Below the pieces are notes generated by a model that saw only the letters and a list, made by a program, of their open reading frames with translations, was not told the DNA's origin and ran no database searches. This document shows positions 48,600 to 54,363 of a stretch of 64,000 nucleotides of DNA, one piece after another (the stretch's first letter is position 1; the number at the start of each line of letters is the position of its first letter). The stretch lies in assembly GCA_945878375.1 (NCBI GenBank), contig CAMDWG010000002.1:62001-126000 (forward strand), read 5' to 3'. Origin of the DNA: Roseomonas mucosa. GTDB lineage: Bacteria > Pseudomonadota > Alphaproteobacteria > Acetobacterales > Acetobacteraceae. The position numbers were made by a program, and so were the translations under genes.

Positions 48600-49502
48600 A
48601 TGTCCGCCCCTGATCCCGCCGCACTCGCCAAGGCTCGGCAGAGCGCCATCCTGCTCGTGCTCGGCTCCTCCGCCACCTTCACGCTGGCCGCCGCCTGCGT
48701 GAAGGGGCTGGAGGGTGCGATCCCGCTGGCGCAGCTGATCCTGTTCCGCAATCTGTTCTCGCTGCCCGTGCTGCTGGCGATGGTGCCGGGCCAGGGGGGG
48801 CTTGCGGTGCTGCGGCCGCGCCAGCCGGGCTGGCACTTGGCGCGGATCATCTTCGGCCTCGGCGGCATGATCGGCGCCTTCGTCGGCTACACCCACCTGC
48901 CATTGGCGACCGCGACGGTGCTGGGCTTCACCATGCCGCTGTTCCTGACCGCGCTGTCGGTGGTGCTGCTGCGCGAACGCGTGGGCTGGCGGCGGTGGAG
49001 CGCGGTGGTGGTGGGCTTCGCCGGCGTCGCGCTGGTCGCCCGCCCCGGCTTCGGGACAGAGGCGCTGCCGGCCTGGCCGGTGGCAGCGGTGCTGGTGGGC
49101 TCGCTCGCCTGGGCGCTGGCGATGATGACGATCCGGCGGATGGGGCAGGCCGGCGAGAACGGGGTGACGATCGTGTTGTGGTTCGCGATCGGCAGTGCGG
49201 TGATCTCGGGCGTTGCCGCGATTCCGACCTGGGTGGAGCCGGATGCGCGCCAATGGGCGCTGCTGCTGGCGATCGGGCTGGTCTCGGCCTTCGCGCAACT
49301 GATGATGACGGCCGCCTATCGCCGCGGCGAGACGACGCTGCTGGCACCCTTCGAGTATGTGGCGCTGGTCTGGACGATGCTGCTGGGGCTGGCGATCTGG
49401 GGCGAATGGCCGGGCCTGCTGGACCTGCTGGGCTTCGCGGTGCTGGTCGGGGCGGGGCTGTTCATCTGGTGGCGGGAGACGCGGCTGGCGCGGGGGCGGT
49501 GA
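48600..49502 (+). CDS. EamA/DMT-superfamily transporter
   Basis: A 300-residue inner-membrane protein with about ten helices in two EamA repeats. Segments such as LVLGSSATFTLAAACVKGLE, LIFGLGGMIGAFVGYTHLPL, ATVLGFTMPLFLTALSVVLL and TTLLAPFEYVALVWTMLLG are characteristic. It exports small metabolites, substrate unknown. It is divergent from the AlaX gene. Confidence 0.85.
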   Translation: MSAPDPAALAKARQSAILLVLGSSATFTLAAACVKGLEGAIPLAQLILFRNLFSLPVLLAMVPGQGGLAVLRPRQPGWHLARIIFGLGGMIGAFVGYTHLPLATATVLGFTMPLFLTALSVVLLRERVGWRRWSAVVVGFAGVALVARPGFGTEALPAWPVAAVLVGSLAWALAMMTIRRMGQAGENGVTIVLWFAIGSAVISGVAAIPTWVEPDARQWALLLAIGLVSAFAQLMMTAAYRRGETTLLAPFEYVALVWTMLLGLAIWGEWPGLLDLLGFAVLVGAGLFIWWRETRLARGR

Positions 49503-49606
49503 GGGGGGGGGCAGGGTGGCCTCGCGCGGCGCCGCGGCCCGGCCCTGCTCCCATTCCGCACCGCCGTGTCCCGCCTTCACCAAGCCTTACTCTTTCCGGT
49601 GCAATA

Positions 49607-49621
49607 GCGGTATATAACCGC
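49607..49621. promoter_or_regulatory. 15-bp palindrome overlapping a likely -10 box
   Basis: GCGGTATATAACCGC (arms GCGGT/ACCGC, centre ATATA) lies 111 bases before the first pyruvyl-transferase-like gene and is the only AT-rich core in the gap. TATATA would serve as -10 for a plus-strand promoter, with the palindrome an operator. Not tested. Confidence 0.4.
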
Positions 49622-49731
49622 AACGATGTGTCGGGCTGCCGGGCGCTTCATCCTGCCCCGCCGATGGATCCTGGCAGGTGCCGTGCGGTTCCGCGGTGTC
49701 GTGCCGTGCGCGTCGGCTGAAGAGGAAGTGA

Positions 49732-50895
49732 ATGATGGCGCAGATGAAGATCGCGGTGCTCTGGGAAGAGGCGTCGCTGGGCCTCTACGGCAATCGCAGC
49801 TTCCCGGAACTGTACAAGGGCTTCGGCGCCAACAGCGGCAATTTGGCCTTCGTGCATGCGATCCGCAGCCATCTGGTGGGCGAGATCGGCGTGCTGGGCT
49901 GGTCGGCGCGGCCCGAGCGCTTCGCCGACTACGACATCATCGTGGTGCCCTGCGCGAACCAACTCGGCCCGCATGTGGAACTGTCGGAACTGGCCGAGCA
50001 TTGGGCCAGGTTCGGCAAACCGATGGTGGCCATCGGCCTGGGCGCGCAGGCGGACAGCTTCGACCAGGATGTGGAGGTCAGCCCGGGCACGCTGGACTGG
50101 GTGCGGCTGATGGCCTCCATGGCGCCGGGAAGCGCGGCCAATATCTGGACGCGCGGGCCCTACACGACCAGCCAGTTGGCCAGGCTCGGCATCCCTGGCA
50201 GCACGGTGGGCGGCTGCCCGACGCATTTCATCAACCCCGCCCCCGATCTCGGCCAGCGCATCTGGCGGGCCTGGACCGCGCATCCGCTGCCGCGCGCGGT
50301 CACGGTCGCCGCCGGCCACGAATCCTGGCTGCACCTGACCACCATCGAACAGCAACTCATCGGCCTGATGCAGGACGTGATCCATGAGGGCCAGTATGTC
50401 GTCCAATCCGCCGAGGGGATGATCCGCATCGCGCGCGGGGAATTCGACGACATTGCCCCTGCGTCGCTGGACGGCATCCGCCGCTATGTCGCGCCGCACC
50501 TGTCGGAGGACGAGTTCCGTGTCTGGTGCCGCCGCTATGCCCGCGCCTACTACGACATTCCGGCCTGGATGGAGAGCCTTGGCCGCTGCGACCTGACCAT
50601 CGGCCCCCGCTATCACGGCGTGGCACTGGCCCTGCAGGCCGAAAGGATGGGTGTCACTGTGACCATCGACAGCCGCACGGAGGAGATGTGCGGCCAGACC
50701 GGCGTGCCCTTCATGCGGGCCCGCGACCTTGCGGGCAGGACGATCACGCGGGCCACCCTGAAGCAGCAGCTTGTCTTCGATCCGGACGCCTATGACGCAC
50801 AGCGCGCGGAGCGCGCTGGCGCATATGTCGCTTTCCTGGAATCGAACGGGCTGGAGGCAGCGGATTTCCTGAAGCGGATCGCGGCCTGGCGGTAG
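49732..50895 (+). CDS. Polysaccharide pyruvyl transferase family protein, copy 1
   Basis: A 387-residue protein of the polysaccharide pyruvyl transferase family (PF04230-like), which adds pyruvate ketals or related groups to glycans. Shared family segments: YGNRSFPELYKGFGANSGNL, IWTRGPYTTSQLARLGIPGS, VGGCPTHFINP and DLTIGPRYHGVALALQAE followed by TIDSRTEEMC. The start has AGAGGAAG upstream. A tandem paralogue follows 210 bases on, about two thirds identical by eye. No glycosyltransferases are adjacent, so the substrate is unknown. Confidence 0.8.
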   Translation: MMAQMKIAVLWEEASLGLYGNRSFPELYKGFGANSGNLAFVHAIRSHLVGEIGVLGWSARPERFADYDIIVVPCANQLGPHVELSELAEHWARFGKPMVAIGLGAQADSFDQDVEVSPGTLDWVRLMASMAPGSAANIWTRGPYTTSQLARLGIPGSTVGGCPTHFINPAPDLGQRIWRAWTAHPLPRAVTVAAGHESWLHLTTIEQQLIGLMQDVIHEGQYVVQSAEGMIRIARGEFDDIAPASLDGIRRYVAPHLSEDEFRVWCRRYARAYYDIPAWMESLGRCDLTIGPRYHGVALALQAERMGVTVTIDSRTEEMCGQTGVPFMRARDLAGRTITRATLKQQLVFDPDAYDAQRAERAGAYVAFLESNGLEAADFLKRIAAWR

Positions 50896-50948
50896 CGTTC
50901 GCCCGCGCCCTCCGGCGGGGAGTCCTGTTCTTGTTCAGGATCGAATTG

Positions 50949-50977
50949 TTGACGCATCGGATGGCCGCATGCTAGGG
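50949..50977 (+). promoter_or_regulatory. Candidate sigma-70-type promoter before copy 2
   Basis: TTGACG (50949-50954), a 17-base spacer and CTAGGG (50972-50977) lie in the gap between the two paralogues, about 130 bases before the start of copy 2. The -10 is poor (TGCTAGGG). If real, copy 2 has its own promoter. Confidence 0.3.
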
Positions 50978-51105
50978 ACGCGGGCGCGACATGGGGACAG
51001 TGGAGCGTGGCCCGGTCGTCCCCGACGCGGTGAACGCCTTGTCCCGCCCGCCGGGTGCTCCCAACGCCGGCCCCGCATGTTCAGCCAGTCACGGAGAGAC
51101 CCCGG

Positions 51106-52335
51106 ATGAAGCCGAAAAAAATCGCGCTGCTATGGGCCGAACCGTCCCTCGGGCTTTACGGCAACCGCAGTTTCGACGCGCTCTTCAAGGGCTTCGGCCA
51201 CAACAGCGGCAACCTTGCCTTCGTCTACGCGATCGGCAACCAATTGGTCGGCAACATCACCTATCTCCCCTGGGGTAGCCGGAAAGAACGCCTCGCGGCT
51301 TTTGACATCGTCGTCGCGCCCTGCGCCAACCAACTCGGCAAGCACACCGACCTCGGCACACTTGCCGCGCTCTGGGCCAGCTTCGACAAGCCGATCGTGG
51401 CCATCGGCCTCGGCGCCCAGGCAAAGTCGCTGGATGATGACGTCGAGGTGACGGAGGGCACGCTATCCTGGGCGCGTACCGTCGCGGCCAAGGCCCCGGG
51501 CAGCGCGTCCAACATCTGGACACGCGGCCCCTACACCGCACGCCAGCTCGAACGGCTCGGCATCCCCGATGCGGTGGTCGGCGGCTGCCCGACCCATTTC
51601 ATCAACCCCGTGGCTGATCTTGGCCGACGCATCGGGCGCGCCTGGAAGGCGAACCCCGTCCCGCGCGCGATCACGGTGGCCGCTGGCCACCAGAGCTGGC
51701 CCGAAGTCCGTGTGATCGAACAGCAGTTGATCGGCCTGATGCAGGACATGGCCCATGACGGCCAATACGTGACGCAATCGGCCGCCGATATGGTCCGCGT
51801 CTCCCGCGGCGAGTTCGATGAGGTCCAGCCGGAGGTGCTGAAGCGGATCCGGAATCACGTGACGCCGCATCTTTCCGAGGACGAGTTCAAGAGCTGGTGC
51901 CGGCGCTACGCCCGCACCTATTACGACATCCCGGCGTGGATGGAGAGCCTTCGGCGCCATGACCTGACCATCGGCCCCCGCTACCATGGCACGCCGATTG
52001 CGCTGCAAGCTGAAGGGATGGGGACTTGCATCGCCATCGACAGCCGGACCGAGGAGATGTGCGTCCAGACCGGGGTGCCGTTCTTGCGCGCGCGGGACCT
52101 TGCCGACAAGCCTATCACGCGCTCCACCCTCAAGAAGATGATTGCATTCGATCCGGACGCCTATGACGCGCAGCGCGCCGAGCGGGCCGGGGCCTATGTC
52201 GCCTTCCTCGAGGCGAACGGGCTGGAGGCGAAGGATTACCTGAAGAAGATCGCCGAAGGTCCGGCGCGCCCTGCGCCGAAGCAGCCTGTGGAGAACGCGC
52301 CGGAGCCCTCGCCAGCCAGCGTCTTGGCGTCGTAA
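51106..52335 (+). CDS. Polysaccharide pyruvyl transferase family protein, copy 2
   Basis: A 409-residue tandem paralogue of the preceding gene, with the same landmarks: SLGLYGNRSFDALFKGFG, NIWTRGPYTARQLERLGIP, VGGCPTHFINP, TIGPRYHGTPIALQAEG and TIDSRTEEMC-like AIDSRTEEMC. The C-terminus has an extra Pro/Ala-rich tail (PARPAPKQPVENAPEPSPAS). The start at 51106 has GGAGAG before it. The pair probably arose by local duplication and then diverged, perhaps for different acceptors. Confidence 0.8.
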   Translation: MKPKKIALLWAEPSLGLYGNRSFDALFKGFGHNSGNLAFVYAIGNQLVGNITYLPWGSRKERLAAFDIVVAPCANQLGKHTDLGTLAALWASFDKPIVAIGLGAQAKSLDDDVEVTEGTLSWARTVAAKAPGSASNIWTRGPYTARQLERLGIPDAVVGGCPTHFINPVADLGRRIGRAWKANPVPRAITVAAGHQSWPEVRVIEQQLIGLMQDMAHDGQYVTQSAADMVRVSRGEFDEVQPEVLKRIRNHVTPHLSEDEFKSWCRRYARTYYDIPAWMESLRRHDLTIGPRYHGTPIALQAEGMGTCIAIDSRTEEMCVQTGVPFLRARDLADKPITRSTLKKMIAFDPDAYDAQRAERAGAYVAFLEANGLEAKDYLKKIAEGPARPAPKQPVENAPEPSPASVLAS

Positions 52336-52371
52336 CGCCTCGCACGGCCAGTCGCTGGGCGAGGCCCCCGC

Positions 52372-52394
52372 TTCAGACCAGCGCCTTCCGGAAC
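52372..52394. repeat. Direct repeat copy 1: stray 3' end of a GNAT gene
   Basis: These 23 bases are identical to 53258-53280. Read on the minus strand they encode FRKALV and a stop, the C-terminus of the GNAT gene at 53259-53687. No further GNAT similarity continues to the right of it, so this is a detached tail. Confidence 0.85.
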
Positions 52395-52558
52395 GACGGC
52401 CATGATCTGGATGTCGCGCTTGACGGGGTATCTTCCATCTTGATGACATCTCCCCTGGAGATCCGACGATAAACGGCTCGGGGCGTGAAGGGCTTGCCCG
52501 ATCTCGTCCCTGCTTTACTACTCGAGGCTTGGCGCGGGGCACCTCGACGGAGTTAACC

Positions 52559-53245
52559 ATGGCCACCGATGCGCCGTTTGGTCCTACCGAGGCAAACGCC
52601 AAGGCTTCCGTGCCGCAGGTGCCGGCGCCCCCGGTCATCGGTCTCCCCTACATGTCGACGTCCGAGCTTGCGCTACTCCGCCAATTGGTTGCCGGGCTGC
52701 AAGCCTATTCGGAGTTCGGCATCGGCGGCTCAACCCGGCTCGCCATCGAATCCGGCATCCAGCGCGTGGTCAGCGTCGAATCCGACAAGGCTTGGCTCGA
52801 CGCCGCGGCCACCAACCCGCTTCTGGCGGCAGCGGTGGCGGATGGCCGTCTGTCCTTGCTGCATGGTGATGTCGGCCCCACGCGCGCCTGGGGGGCACCA
52901 TCTGATCCACAGACCAAGCACCTGTGGCCCGGCTATTGGCAGCGCCCATGGGCGATTTGGTCCGAGGAGCGCCGCATGCCCGACTTGGTCTTCGTGGATG
53001 GTCGCTTCCGCGTGGCCTGCGCGCTGGCGGCGCTAGACTTCGCTCGCTCCTTCGGCGCGGCGCCGGAGCAGTATCGGGTCGTGATCCACGATTTCAGCAG
53101 CAAAAGGGAGTACTACAACCCTGTGCTGCAATTCTTCGATGTGGTCGATCGGGCGGAGAGTCTCGTGGTTTTGAAGGCCCACGCCGCCATCGCGGCGAGT
53201 GCTCTGTGCGAAGCGCTTTCCCAGTTCTCCCTCGACACCCGTTGA
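52559..53245 (+). CDS. Class I SAM methyltransferase-like protein
   Basis: A 228-residue protein with a Rossmann methyltransferase core. Motif I reads YSEFGIGGSTRLAIESG, followed by RVVSVESDKAWLDAA (acidic residue for SAM ribose), a GDVGPTRAWG segment and PDLVFVDGRFRVACALAALD. It matches uncharacterised proteins seen in glycan clusters, so transfer to a sugar or protein is possible but unproven. The start at 52559 has GGAG. It lies between the two copies of a 23-bp direct repeat, and its flanks are less GC-rich than the rest, which suggests insertion. Confidence 0.65.
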   Translation: MATDAPFGPTEANAKASVPQVPAPPVIGLPYMSTSELALLRQLVAGLQAYSEFGIGGSTRLAIESGIQRVVSVESDKAWLDAAATNPLLAAAVADGRLSLLHGDVGPTRAWGAPSDPQTKHLWPGYWQRPWAIWSEERRMPDLVFVDGRFRVACALAALDFARSFGAAPEQYRVVIHDFSSKREYYNPVLQFFDVVDRAESLVVLKAHAAIAASALCEALSQFSLDTR

Positions 53246-53257
53246 TGAGACGGCGGT

Positions 53258-53280
53258 TTCAGACCAGCGCCTTCCGGAAC
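53258..53280. repeat. Direct repeat copy 2: 3' end of the intact GNAT gene
   Basis: Identical over 23 bases to 52372-52394 and in the same orientation. It is the genuine stop and last codons of the GNAT gene on the minus strand. Confidence 0.85.
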
Positions 53281-53687
53281 CACAACCGCGCATGCCCCGC
53301 CGGCATTCCGTCCAGGCGGCCGAATTCGGCGTAGCCGTTGCGCTGCCAGAAATCCGGGGCCTGGAAGCTGAAGGTGTCCGTATAGGCCTGGCCGCAGCCG
53401 CGGTCGCGCGCGATGGCCTCGGCGCGGCGCAGCAATTCGGAACCCAGGCCCTGGCCGCGCATCTCCCGCGACAGCCACAGCCAGTCGATGAACAGCCAGC
53501 CCCAGAAGGTCAGGCCCAGCAGCCCGCCGCGCACCGCGCCATCCGGGCCGCGCGCCAGCAGCGTCACCGGTTCGCGGTCATAGCCGCCGCCCATTTCCTG
53601 GTTGTAGGTGTGCAGCCCGCGCTGGATCGCGGCCACGGCGTCAAGCTCGGGGTAGGCGTCCTCGACGATCTGGATATCGCTGCTCAT
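53259..53687 (-). CDS. GNAT family N-acetyltransferase
   Basis: A 142-residue acetyltransferase. The acetyl-CoA motif is WLSREMRGQGLGSELLRRAE (R/QxxGxG), followed by YTDTFSFQAPDFWQRNGYAE, a pattern of small GNATs acting on amines. The last codons form the right-hand copy of the 23-bp direct repeat. Its acceptor is unknown. The next gene on the strand is parA-like, 40 bases upstream of its start. Confidence 0.85.
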   Translation of the reverse strand: MSSDIQIVEDAYPELDAVAAIQRGLHTYNQEMGGGYDREPVTLLARGPDGAVRGGLLGLTFWGWLFIDWLWLSREMRGQGLGSELLRRAEAIARDRGCGQAYTDTFSFQAPDFWQRNGYAEFGRLDGMPAGHARLWFRKALV

Positions 53688-53727
53688 GGTAACCCGGTGG
53701 TTCGGCGGGCGCAGAAGGCCACGGCGC

Positions 53728-54363
53728 TCAGCGCCGCGCCAGCCCCCGCAGGGCCGCCGCCAGCGCCCGCATCTCCGCCGCCGCTGGCGAACGCGGCGCG
53801 GCTTCCGTCACGCCGAGGCCGAGCGCGAAGGCGCTGGCGAAACCGGCGCGGTTGCCGAGCGGCGCATCGAGCAGCGTCAGCCCCTGGGCGCGCAGCTCCC
53901 GCGCCACATCCTCGCCCAGCCGTCCCTGGGAGGGCACGCGGTTCAGCGTCAGCACGGCCGGGCGCTTCTCCGCGCGCGCCAGGTCGAGCGTCGCGCCCAT
54001 CGCCCAGAGATCGGCGGCGGAAGGCTGCAGCGGCACCAGCACCAGGTCGGCGGCGCGGATGGCGATGCGGGCGTCGGTGTCGTCATGCGGCGGGGTGTCG
54101 AGCAGGATGACATCGTGGCCACGCCGTAGCGCGTCGCAGGCGCCGGGCACCCGCCAGCCGGATGGCGCCTGGAAGGTCAGCGGGCGGGCCTTGGCGCCGG
54201 CCCGGCCGCGCGCTTCGTGCCAGTGGAACAGGGTCTTCTGCGGATCGGTGTCGAGCACCGCCACCCGCTCCCCCAGCCCCGCGAAGGTGGCGGCGAGGTT
54301 GGCGGCGAGGGTCGATTTCCCCGCGCCGCCCTTCCGCTGCGCGACGGCAACGACGAAGGCCAT
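53728..54363 (-). CDS. ParA/MinD-family ATPase, orphan
   Basis: A 211-residue P-loop ATPase. The deviant Walker A is QRKGGAGKSTLAANLAA, the A' segment LDTDPQKTL and Walker B-like VILLDTPPHDD are seen. The short form lacks the N-terminal DNA-binding domain of plasmid ParA and has no parB beside it, so it more likely positions a cytoplasmic or surface cargo than segregates DNA. It is divergent from the NAD(P)HX repair gene. Confidence 0.83.
   Translation of the reverse strand: MAFVVAVAQRKGGAGKSTLAANLAATFAGLGERVAVLDTDPQKTLFHWHEARGRAGAKARPLTFQAPSGWRVPGACDALRRGHDVILLDTPPHDDTDARIAIRAADLVLVPLQPSAADLWAMGATLDLARAEKRPAVLTLNRVPSQGRLGEDVARELRAQGLTLLDAPLGNRAGFASAFALGLGVTEAAPRSPAAAEMRALAAALRGLARR

Follow-up and report, generated by a model that had tools for sequence, protein, structure and literature searches.

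Pyruvate groups acidify surface glycans and can determine the binding of proteins, phages and immune factors. What, then, are two adjacent genes of the polysaccharide pyruvyl-transferase family doing in Roseomonas mucosa at a place where no glycosyltransferase was found beside them? Both lie in the window, the whole 64,000-nt stretch of DNA analysed here, where the interval that holds them comprises the following features.

48600 to 49502, plus strand: EamA-family transporter (PF00892), a core gene syntenic in 12 congeners; left border of the interval, outside the cassette
49735 to 50895, plus strand: PPT1, PF04230 protein of the NxGN clade, 386 aa (49.6 bits; NSGN, RGPYT and GPRYHG motifs)
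51106 to 52335, plus strand: PPT2, PF04230 protein of the NxGN clade, 409 aa (50.3 bits; NSGN, RGPYT and GPRYHG motifs)
52361 to 52397, no strand: copy of the 3' end of the GNAT gene, 23 nt exact, left flank of the MT segment (repeat family D7)
52559 to 53245, plus strand: MT, 3cvo-like methyltransferase-fold protein, 228 aa (PDB 3cvo, E 4e-19)
53247 to 53283, no strand: 3' end of the GNAT gene proper, right flank of the MT segment (repeat family D7)
53259 to 53687, minus strand: GNAT (PF00583), a core gene present in 15/15 genus genomes; right border of the interval, outside the cassette

For PPT1, an alternative start at the ATG at 49732 is possible. The matches of PPT1 (E 6.6e-13) and PPT2 (E 4.1e-13) to PF04230 (PS_pyruv_trans) exceed the Pfam gathering cut-off of 25.3 bits, and the two proteins are 70% identical over a gap-free alignment of 383 aa, in agreement with an earlier note on this DNA, which had proposed two adjacent family members alike in their key segments and followed by a methyltransferase-like gene. 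PPT1 and PPT2 are sisters in the tree, with support of 100/99, and are the product of a lineage-specific duplication. Both are under purifying selection (dN 0.225, dS 0.84, dN/dS about 0.27), are full length and retain every clade-invariant residue.

PPT1, PPT2 and MT form an accessory islet between the core EamA and GNAT genes. The GNAT gene is arranged tail to tail with MT, and its neighbours are conserved. The same interval holds a sulfotransferase-like gene in 12 congeners and is empty in one (G202), one further contig being too short to read; none of the 13 other genus genomes with a readable interval has a PPT gene there, and any PPT match at all was found in 4 of the 15 genus genomes. 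GC3 is lowest in MT and PPT2 among 29 picked genes of the window, and PPT1 ranks sixth from the bottom. Searches for a phage or defence origin returned no match in phage records, no PHROGs match at E 0.1 and no PADLOC match at E 0.01. The interval after GNAT was also considered as a general slot for glycan genes, an idea that we rejected, since only one (L212, with a GSCFA gene) of 20 stretches from other genera (L197-L216) had a modelled glycan-type gene there; with Siccirubricoccus deserti, where a distant PPT gene and a family-2 glycosyltransferase gene follow GNAT, the count becomes 2/21. Because several of the 20 stretches had lost synteny, the idea is limited to the genus of the window.

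The pyruvyltransferases CsaB, Pvg1p, WbbZ and WcfO have NxGD, RxxxS/T and His motifs in common, according to the available part of the report on WbbZ, in which the first of these is N29xG31D32 (PMC10629545). Residues 33-36 of both PPT1 and PPT2 read NSGN, not NxGD, and the motif position of the Asp is occupied by Asn in all 72 distinct readable sequences of the clade (PPT1, PPT2 and 70 relatives, duplicate loci removed). A sample of 12 more PF04230 proteins, taken from plasmids, has Asn there in 11. The RxxxS/T motif is present in both proteins as R140-x-x-x-T144, and the conserved His is H294, matched by motif and alignment to H226 of WbbZ and H308 of CsaB. Retention among the 72 sequences is complete for R140, reaches 71 for T144 and R292, and 70 for each of H294, D312, R314 and E317; this retention agrees with the RxxxS/T and His motifs that the accessible text describes in pyruvyltransferases (PMC10629545). 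R148 and H308 of CsaB from Paenibacillus alvei, which are tied to PEP (PMC10435577), plausibly correspond to R140 and H294, and N36 is, by motif, probably the counterpart of D106 of Pvg1p from Schizosaccharomyces pombe, an acceptor contact whose replacement in D106A leaves the enzyme nearly inactive, as stated in the part of the source available (PMC4872226).

Judged by its motifs, the NxGN group is a divergent branch of PF04230 in which nearly all of the other motifs are retained. Its members come from Asticcacaulis, Azospirillum, Microvirga, Paracoccus and other genera, the nearest relatives of the pair being 52-62% identical and the furthest sampled about 24-28%. The exchange of Asp for Asn points to a way of handling the acceptor, and perhaps to a product, other than those of CsaB, Pvg1p and WbbZ; pyruvyl transfer by PPT1 and PPT2 stays putative because they have NxGN where the characterised enzymes have NxGD.

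Our preference goes, if only slightly, to an acquired glycan-decorating islet in which PPT1 and PPT2 are PEP-using transferases acting on a surface glycan built elsewhere. The islet would have been horizontally acquired and inserted between the core EamA and GNAT genes. PPT1 and PPT2 would be cytosolic GT-B-fold enzymes that use PEP to attach a pyruvate-type, charged group to surface-glycan sugars, and the two diverged copies may serve two acceptor sites or two sugars. The glycosyltransferases for that glycan would be encoded elsewhere, possibly at a locus on contig C8. The role of MT may be methylation of that glycan or of a different surface glycan, and the gene seems to have come in separately.

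The glycan-modification role put forward in the earlier note is supported by membership in PF04230, by a GT-B-fold model that has Pvg1p among its tied best matches, and by the surroundings of relatives. A GT4-model match occurs in 29 of 61 loci of PPT relatives as compared with 0 of 20 other loci, these controls being another gene's surroundings and, at 3.3-12.6 kb, shorter than most of the 61 (up to 15.2 kb), which are themselves not independent, with several per genus and shared contigs for L090/L096 and L092/L094. An AlgX neighbour model had drifted into PPT sequences and was left out of this tally. Relatives are not confined, as the refuting case of the earlier note would require, to isolated singletons with non-glycan neighbours, although 26/61 loci have no modelled glycan-type neighbour, which counts against the reading we favour. 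In contrast to the two copies of the window, many NxGN relatives occur alone, or have a GT4-type gene, an NxGD paralogue or the uncharacterised SECR gene in their vicinity. SECR adjoins PPT genes in 24/61 loci; a search run without a positive control gave no SECR match in the window's genome.

That genome contains 25 matches to PF00535 (family-2 glycosyltransferases), none of them on the 375-kb contig C2 that carries the window, in line, for family-2 enzymes, with the lack of a nearby glycosyltransferase pointed out earlier. Such isolation is not without precedent, because the locus of WbbZ, an experimentally shown pyruvyltransferase of Klebsiella O1, is unlinked to the main O-antigen locus; the available text also describes a GT-B fold, signs of lateral transfer and, alongside, the polymerase gene wbbY, encoding a glycosyltransferase (PMC10629545). 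Like WbbZ as described there, the PPT pair is an accessory locus with RxxxS/T and His motifs common by alignment; unlike WbbZ, it has NxGN in place of NxGD, and no glycosyltransferase gene was found adjoining it. Elsewhere in the same genome, the contig-C8 locus (PPTd model, E 3.1e-66; GWA model, E 9e-67) combines an NxGD-type PF04230 gene with a GWA-type gene, the kind that accompanies NxGN genes in other genomes.

Does MT belong with the pair? It resembles PDB 3cvo, a 'methyltransferase-like protein of unknown function', over residues 34-159 and has no match in Pfam or NCBIfam; methyl transfer by it is putative. That PPT1 and PPT2 modify a glycan while MT is an unrelated neighbour from a separate event is a serious possibility, and we stop just short of leaning towards it. 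Copies of the 3' end of GNAT border the MT segment and no other part of the islet, and an MT homologue occurs near a PPT gene in only 1/61 loci, which also counts against our preferred explanation. Homologues of MT are present in 33 of 200 genomes of the family, mostly other than those with a PPT match, and by-eye inspection found flagellin-like genes adjoining them in 5/12 loci. Conversely, in Plastoroseomonas hellenica (L035/L133) a PPT gene is directly followed by an MT homologue, and four congeners have MT homologues inside glycan-type loci, all four stretches also giving GWA-model and GT4-model matches. The exact 23-nt repeat had escaped the earlier note; in a whole-genome search it extends to 26 nt at 96% (E 6.4e-5). 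The flagellin-like neighbours suggest a flagellar-glycan idea; the single flagellin gene of the window's genome lies on contig C3, and the stretch around it, read by eye, contains neither a PPT nor an MT gene.

The group that PPT1 and PPT2 transfer is the second matter on which readings diverge. The AlphaFold2 model of PPT2 (pLDDT 94.5) has a GT-B fold, and comparison with Pvg1p (PDB 5AX7) gave an overall likeness with Z 13.2 and rmsd 4.3 over 241 residues, at 11% identity, tied with the best rows and with many GT-B enzymes. The best fold matches are glycosyltransferases and epimerases, which are not separable from pyruvyltransferases; WbbZ (6X1L) is absent among the best 50 fold matches listed, which says nothing against kinship. 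By sequence, neither PPT2 alone nor the C8 and C7 proteins of the same genome found a solved relative, and profiles A1 and A4 yielded chance-level rows only against solved structures. Several results weigh against the explanation that we prefer, beside NxGN in place of NxGD and the undiscriminating fold matches: profile and sequence searches starting from the PPT pair did not reach any solved pyruvyltransferase; the CsaB equivalog model TIGR03609 matches the C-terminal part of the PPTs weakly, at 21.0 and 16.2 bits, far below its cut-off of 213.1; and the PF04230 match begins at about profile position 33 (32-33) in PPT1 and 61 in PPT2. In the NxGD proteins L116 and those of C8 and C7, it begins at position 1.

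An unlikely alternative is that the NxGN clade does not transfer pyruvyl groups at all, having retained the GT-B fold along with a set of anion-binding Arg and His residues but moving something else (a sugar, or a different charged group) onto a surface glycan. The invariant Asn of the clade, at a position where Asp contacts the acceptor, would fit this, as would the glycosyltransferases and epimerases heading the fold comparison and the NxGN genes that, in several loci, adjoin NxGD paralogues as if performing different steps. Against it, those Arg and His positions that have been linked to PEP in CsaB (PMC10435577) and, in the text available, Pvg1p (PMC4872226) appear retained, and Asn could still bind the acceptor through hydrogen bonds. 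Extended to the whole group, the proposal would make the NxGN clade an undescribed and widespread branch of PF04230: it would no longer form the pyruvate ketal by the known route, its members would transfer something other than pyruvate or use pyruvate on a different type of acceptor, and in several genera they would carry out a second step alongside an NxGD protein; we regard this as doubtful. The window's genome itself has two NxGN copies here and its NxGD-type gene at the contig-C8 locus.

It is very improbable that the islet is decaying or non-functional. Its occurrence in the genus is patchy, the PPT relative in G152 carries in-frame stops, and that in Paracoccus liaowanqingii is shortened and adjoins an IS630 transposase gene, but the intact length, selective constraint and retained residues of both copies in the window speak against decay here. 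At 210 and 223 nt, the spacing of PPT1, PPT2 and MT makes a shared transcript putative at most, and this counts against our favoured reading of an acquired decorating islet. A sigma-70 scan of 49400-53800 detected no promoter-like site.

The four-gene, operator-controlled, teichoic-like system that includes GNAT is hardly credible, its physical adjacency being set against a core GNAT gene on the opposite strand, a palindrome at chance level and an alphaproteobacterial host, with Siccirubricoccus and Plastoroseomonas among the genomes of the same family. A GNAT gene is indeed present, as the earlier note had it, but as a gene syntenic without PPTs and not as a member of the system. Likewise, the palindrome at 49607-49621 exists as written and has no second copy in the genome even at one mismatch, but its 5-bp arms do not make it operator-like: such a palindrome is expected 0.32 times per window, and at least one appeared in 28 of 100 shuffles.

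For the biology of these bacteria, the interval shows a swap of decoration genes among close relatives, the sulfotransferase-like gene of 12 congeners standing where the PPT pair stands here. For the family, the tandem pair makes the role of the Asp/Asn residue directly testable, the adjoining NxGD paralogues of other genera serving as internal controls. Should catalysis depend on the Asp of NxGD, many annotated pyruvyl transferases, those with Asn among the 72 distinct sequences and the plasmid sample, may be misnamed.

The two pyruvyl-transferase-like genes of the PF04230 family, PPT1 and PPT2, and a gene of methyltransferase fold (MT) lie between two core genes, EamA on the left and GNAT on the right:

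49735-50895, + strand: PPT1, PF04230 above cut-off
51106-52335, + strand: PPT2, PF04230 above cut-off
52559-53245, + strand: MT, matches PDB 3cvo
53259-53687, - strand: GNAT
52361-52397 and 53247-53283: repeat copies flanking MT, 23 nt exact, GNAT 3' end

The earlier note had assigned PPT1 and PPT2 to this family as an adjacent pair, and the PF04230 check bore this out for both genes; MT had no match in Pfam or NCBIfam. The pair is on contig C2 (374,658 bases) of a 3.86 Mb genome, which contains two more PF04230 genes outside the window, on contigs C8 and C7.

PPT1 and PPT2 are 70% identical over 383 aa and, in a tree of 81 rows, are sisters with support 100/99, the closest other row being a protein from a Nitrosovibrio-labelled MAG. 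The duplicates of Asticcacaulis group in their own subclade of this tree, and annotated neighbouring PF04230 pairs occur in Acuticoccus and Phyllobacterium. The divergence between the copies (dN 0.225, dS 0.84) indicates that both are evolving under constraint, and all residues invariant among 36 aligned members are kept in both.

GNAT, which the earlier note had tentatively placed inside the cassette, was found in all 15 genomes of the genus, and EamA and GNAT lay on one stretch in 12 of the 14 other genomes, in most of them flanked by AlaX-SseA-MetC and ParA-Nnr-MCD, one set per side. The content of the EamA-GNAT interval varies between genomes: a conserved gene, SULF, occupies it in 11 of these 12 (stretches L071-L081) and also occurs in L087, a stretch not reaching EamA; in genome G202 EamA directly abuts GNAT; and the interval of G201 is unreadable because its contig ends too soon. 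No readable interval of the other genus genomes contained a PPT. PPT matches were found in four of the 15 genomes including the window's own, the other three at 29-31% identity, and GC3 among 29 selected window genes is lowest in MT and PPT2. The simplest reading is that the PPT islet was acquired from outside the genus.

SULF, standing in the place of the PPT pair, carries a HIGQSKTGTSSIQR stretch at its N-terminus and TPRs at its C-terminus. Its Pfam matches are TPR repeats only, and the best Foldseek match of its model (pLDDT 77) is the sulfotransferase 3rnl (E 6.1e-4); the name sulfotransferase-like, coming from the model match, is thus a suggestion. Distant PPT relatives were seen in G152, of the same genus, with two in-frame stops (L043:7673-8827), and in G186, of another genus and putatively Siccirubricoccus deserti (about 29-30%), beside a family-2 glycosyltransferase in the syntenic interval after GNAT (L039:8180-10338). 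On a Paracoccus liaowanqingii plasmid, a relative is shortened directly after an annotated IS630 transposase gene (L029:11809-12732).

The 3' end of GNAT, stop codon included, has an exact 23-nt copy on the far side of MT, a match significant genome-wide (E 6.4e-5) and absent from the congener loci examined, suggesting that the MT segment arrived by its own event. No integrase or transposase was noticed on inspecting the window's ORF list by eye, as distinct from a search, and no recognised mobile element accompanies the repeat.

According to PMC10629545, known and candidate glycan pyruvyltransferases conserve, in WbbZ numbering, N29xG31D32, R121xxx(S/T) and H226, and Pvg1p D106 touches the acceptor, the D106A mutant being almost inactive. 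The corresponding motifs of PPT1 and PPT2 are N33-S-G-N36, R140-G-P-Y-T144 and G-P-R292-Y-H294-G, and from motif alignment N36 would fall at the exact site of Pvg1p D106. This NxGN variant was present in 72 of 88 distinct sequences collected, the rest being 15 NxGD (five read from the alignment and ten, with a clipped N-terminus, from the full ORF) and one fragment. The other positions were kept among the 72 (R140, 72/72; T144, 71/72; R292, 71/72; H294, 70/72). Likewise, ten plasmid stretches sampled down the ranking gave NxGN in 11 of 12 PF04230 proteins, the sole exception being from Azospirillum brasilense. The Pfam profile match begins at position 1 in NxGD proteins versus 33 and 61 in PPT1 and PPT2, which agrees with the distinction between the two sequence types. 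An NxGN-type PF04230 relative also occurs on pSymB of Sinorhizobium meliloti 1021, a well-studied symbiont (991597-992490; L217:1501-2394). Our literature search found no publication on the NxGN branch, which is weak evidence as most subscription journals were outside its coverage.

An AlphaFold2 model of PPT2, built from 36 sequences (pLDDT 94.5, pTM 0.90), matched GT-B enzymes with Foldseek and VIA-align 2, namely glycosyltransferases, UDP-GlcNAc 2-epimerases and Pvg1p, with scores spread over only about two Z units. WbbZ has a similar fold background, yet Pvg1p was its clear top match (DALI Z 22), according to PMC10629545. Pvg1p thus stands out for WbbZ but not for the PPT2 model, which counts against close kinship of function.

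A scan with profile A1 yielded 61 named loci, whose neighbours were scored with models built in this analysis. At least one glycan-type neighbour was present in 35 loci and none in 26. GT4-model matches, the seed being confirmed with Pfam (PF13692, PF00534), occurred in 29/61 loci, compared with 0/20 control loci around GNAT in other genera, although these stretches were shorter. The families we call SECR, GAG and GWA, all without a Pfam match, occurred in 24, 19 and 12 of the 61, at least two PF04230-type ORFs in 15, the T1ABC and HlyD components of type I secretion in five and four, and an MT homologue in one. The tally recognised PPT itself in only 56/61 loci; therefore, gene calling misses some. 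SECR (e.g. L120:8173-9351), which lies close to PPTs in genera such as Azospirillum and Microvirga, has an apparent signal peptide by eye and no NCBIfam match. A PPT relative adjoins an annotated flagellin on a Microvirga plasmid, and in 5 of 12 loci inspected (L153, L158, L159, L160 and L161) MT homologues adjoin genes judged by eye to be flagellin-like.

In the same genome, stretch L049 of contig C8 contains an NxGD-type PF04230 gene (E 3.1e-66 with the PPTd model), two GWA-model matches (best E 9e-67) and a PF00535 match (C8:181113-181493). In other genomes NxGD and GWA genes lie beside NxGN genes, and in the four congeners with an MT homologue the same stretches also carry GWA-model and GT4-model matches; thus, parts adjacent elsewhere appear to be split here between C2 and C8. 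We infer that the two sets may act on one glycan.

Together, the PPT1-PPT2 locus is an accessory islet gained by acquisition; it encodes two PF04230 enzymes that arose by duplication and evolve under constraint, and it most likely decorates a surface glycan made elsewhere. The interesting point is the role of the Asp-to-Asn branch of PF04230.
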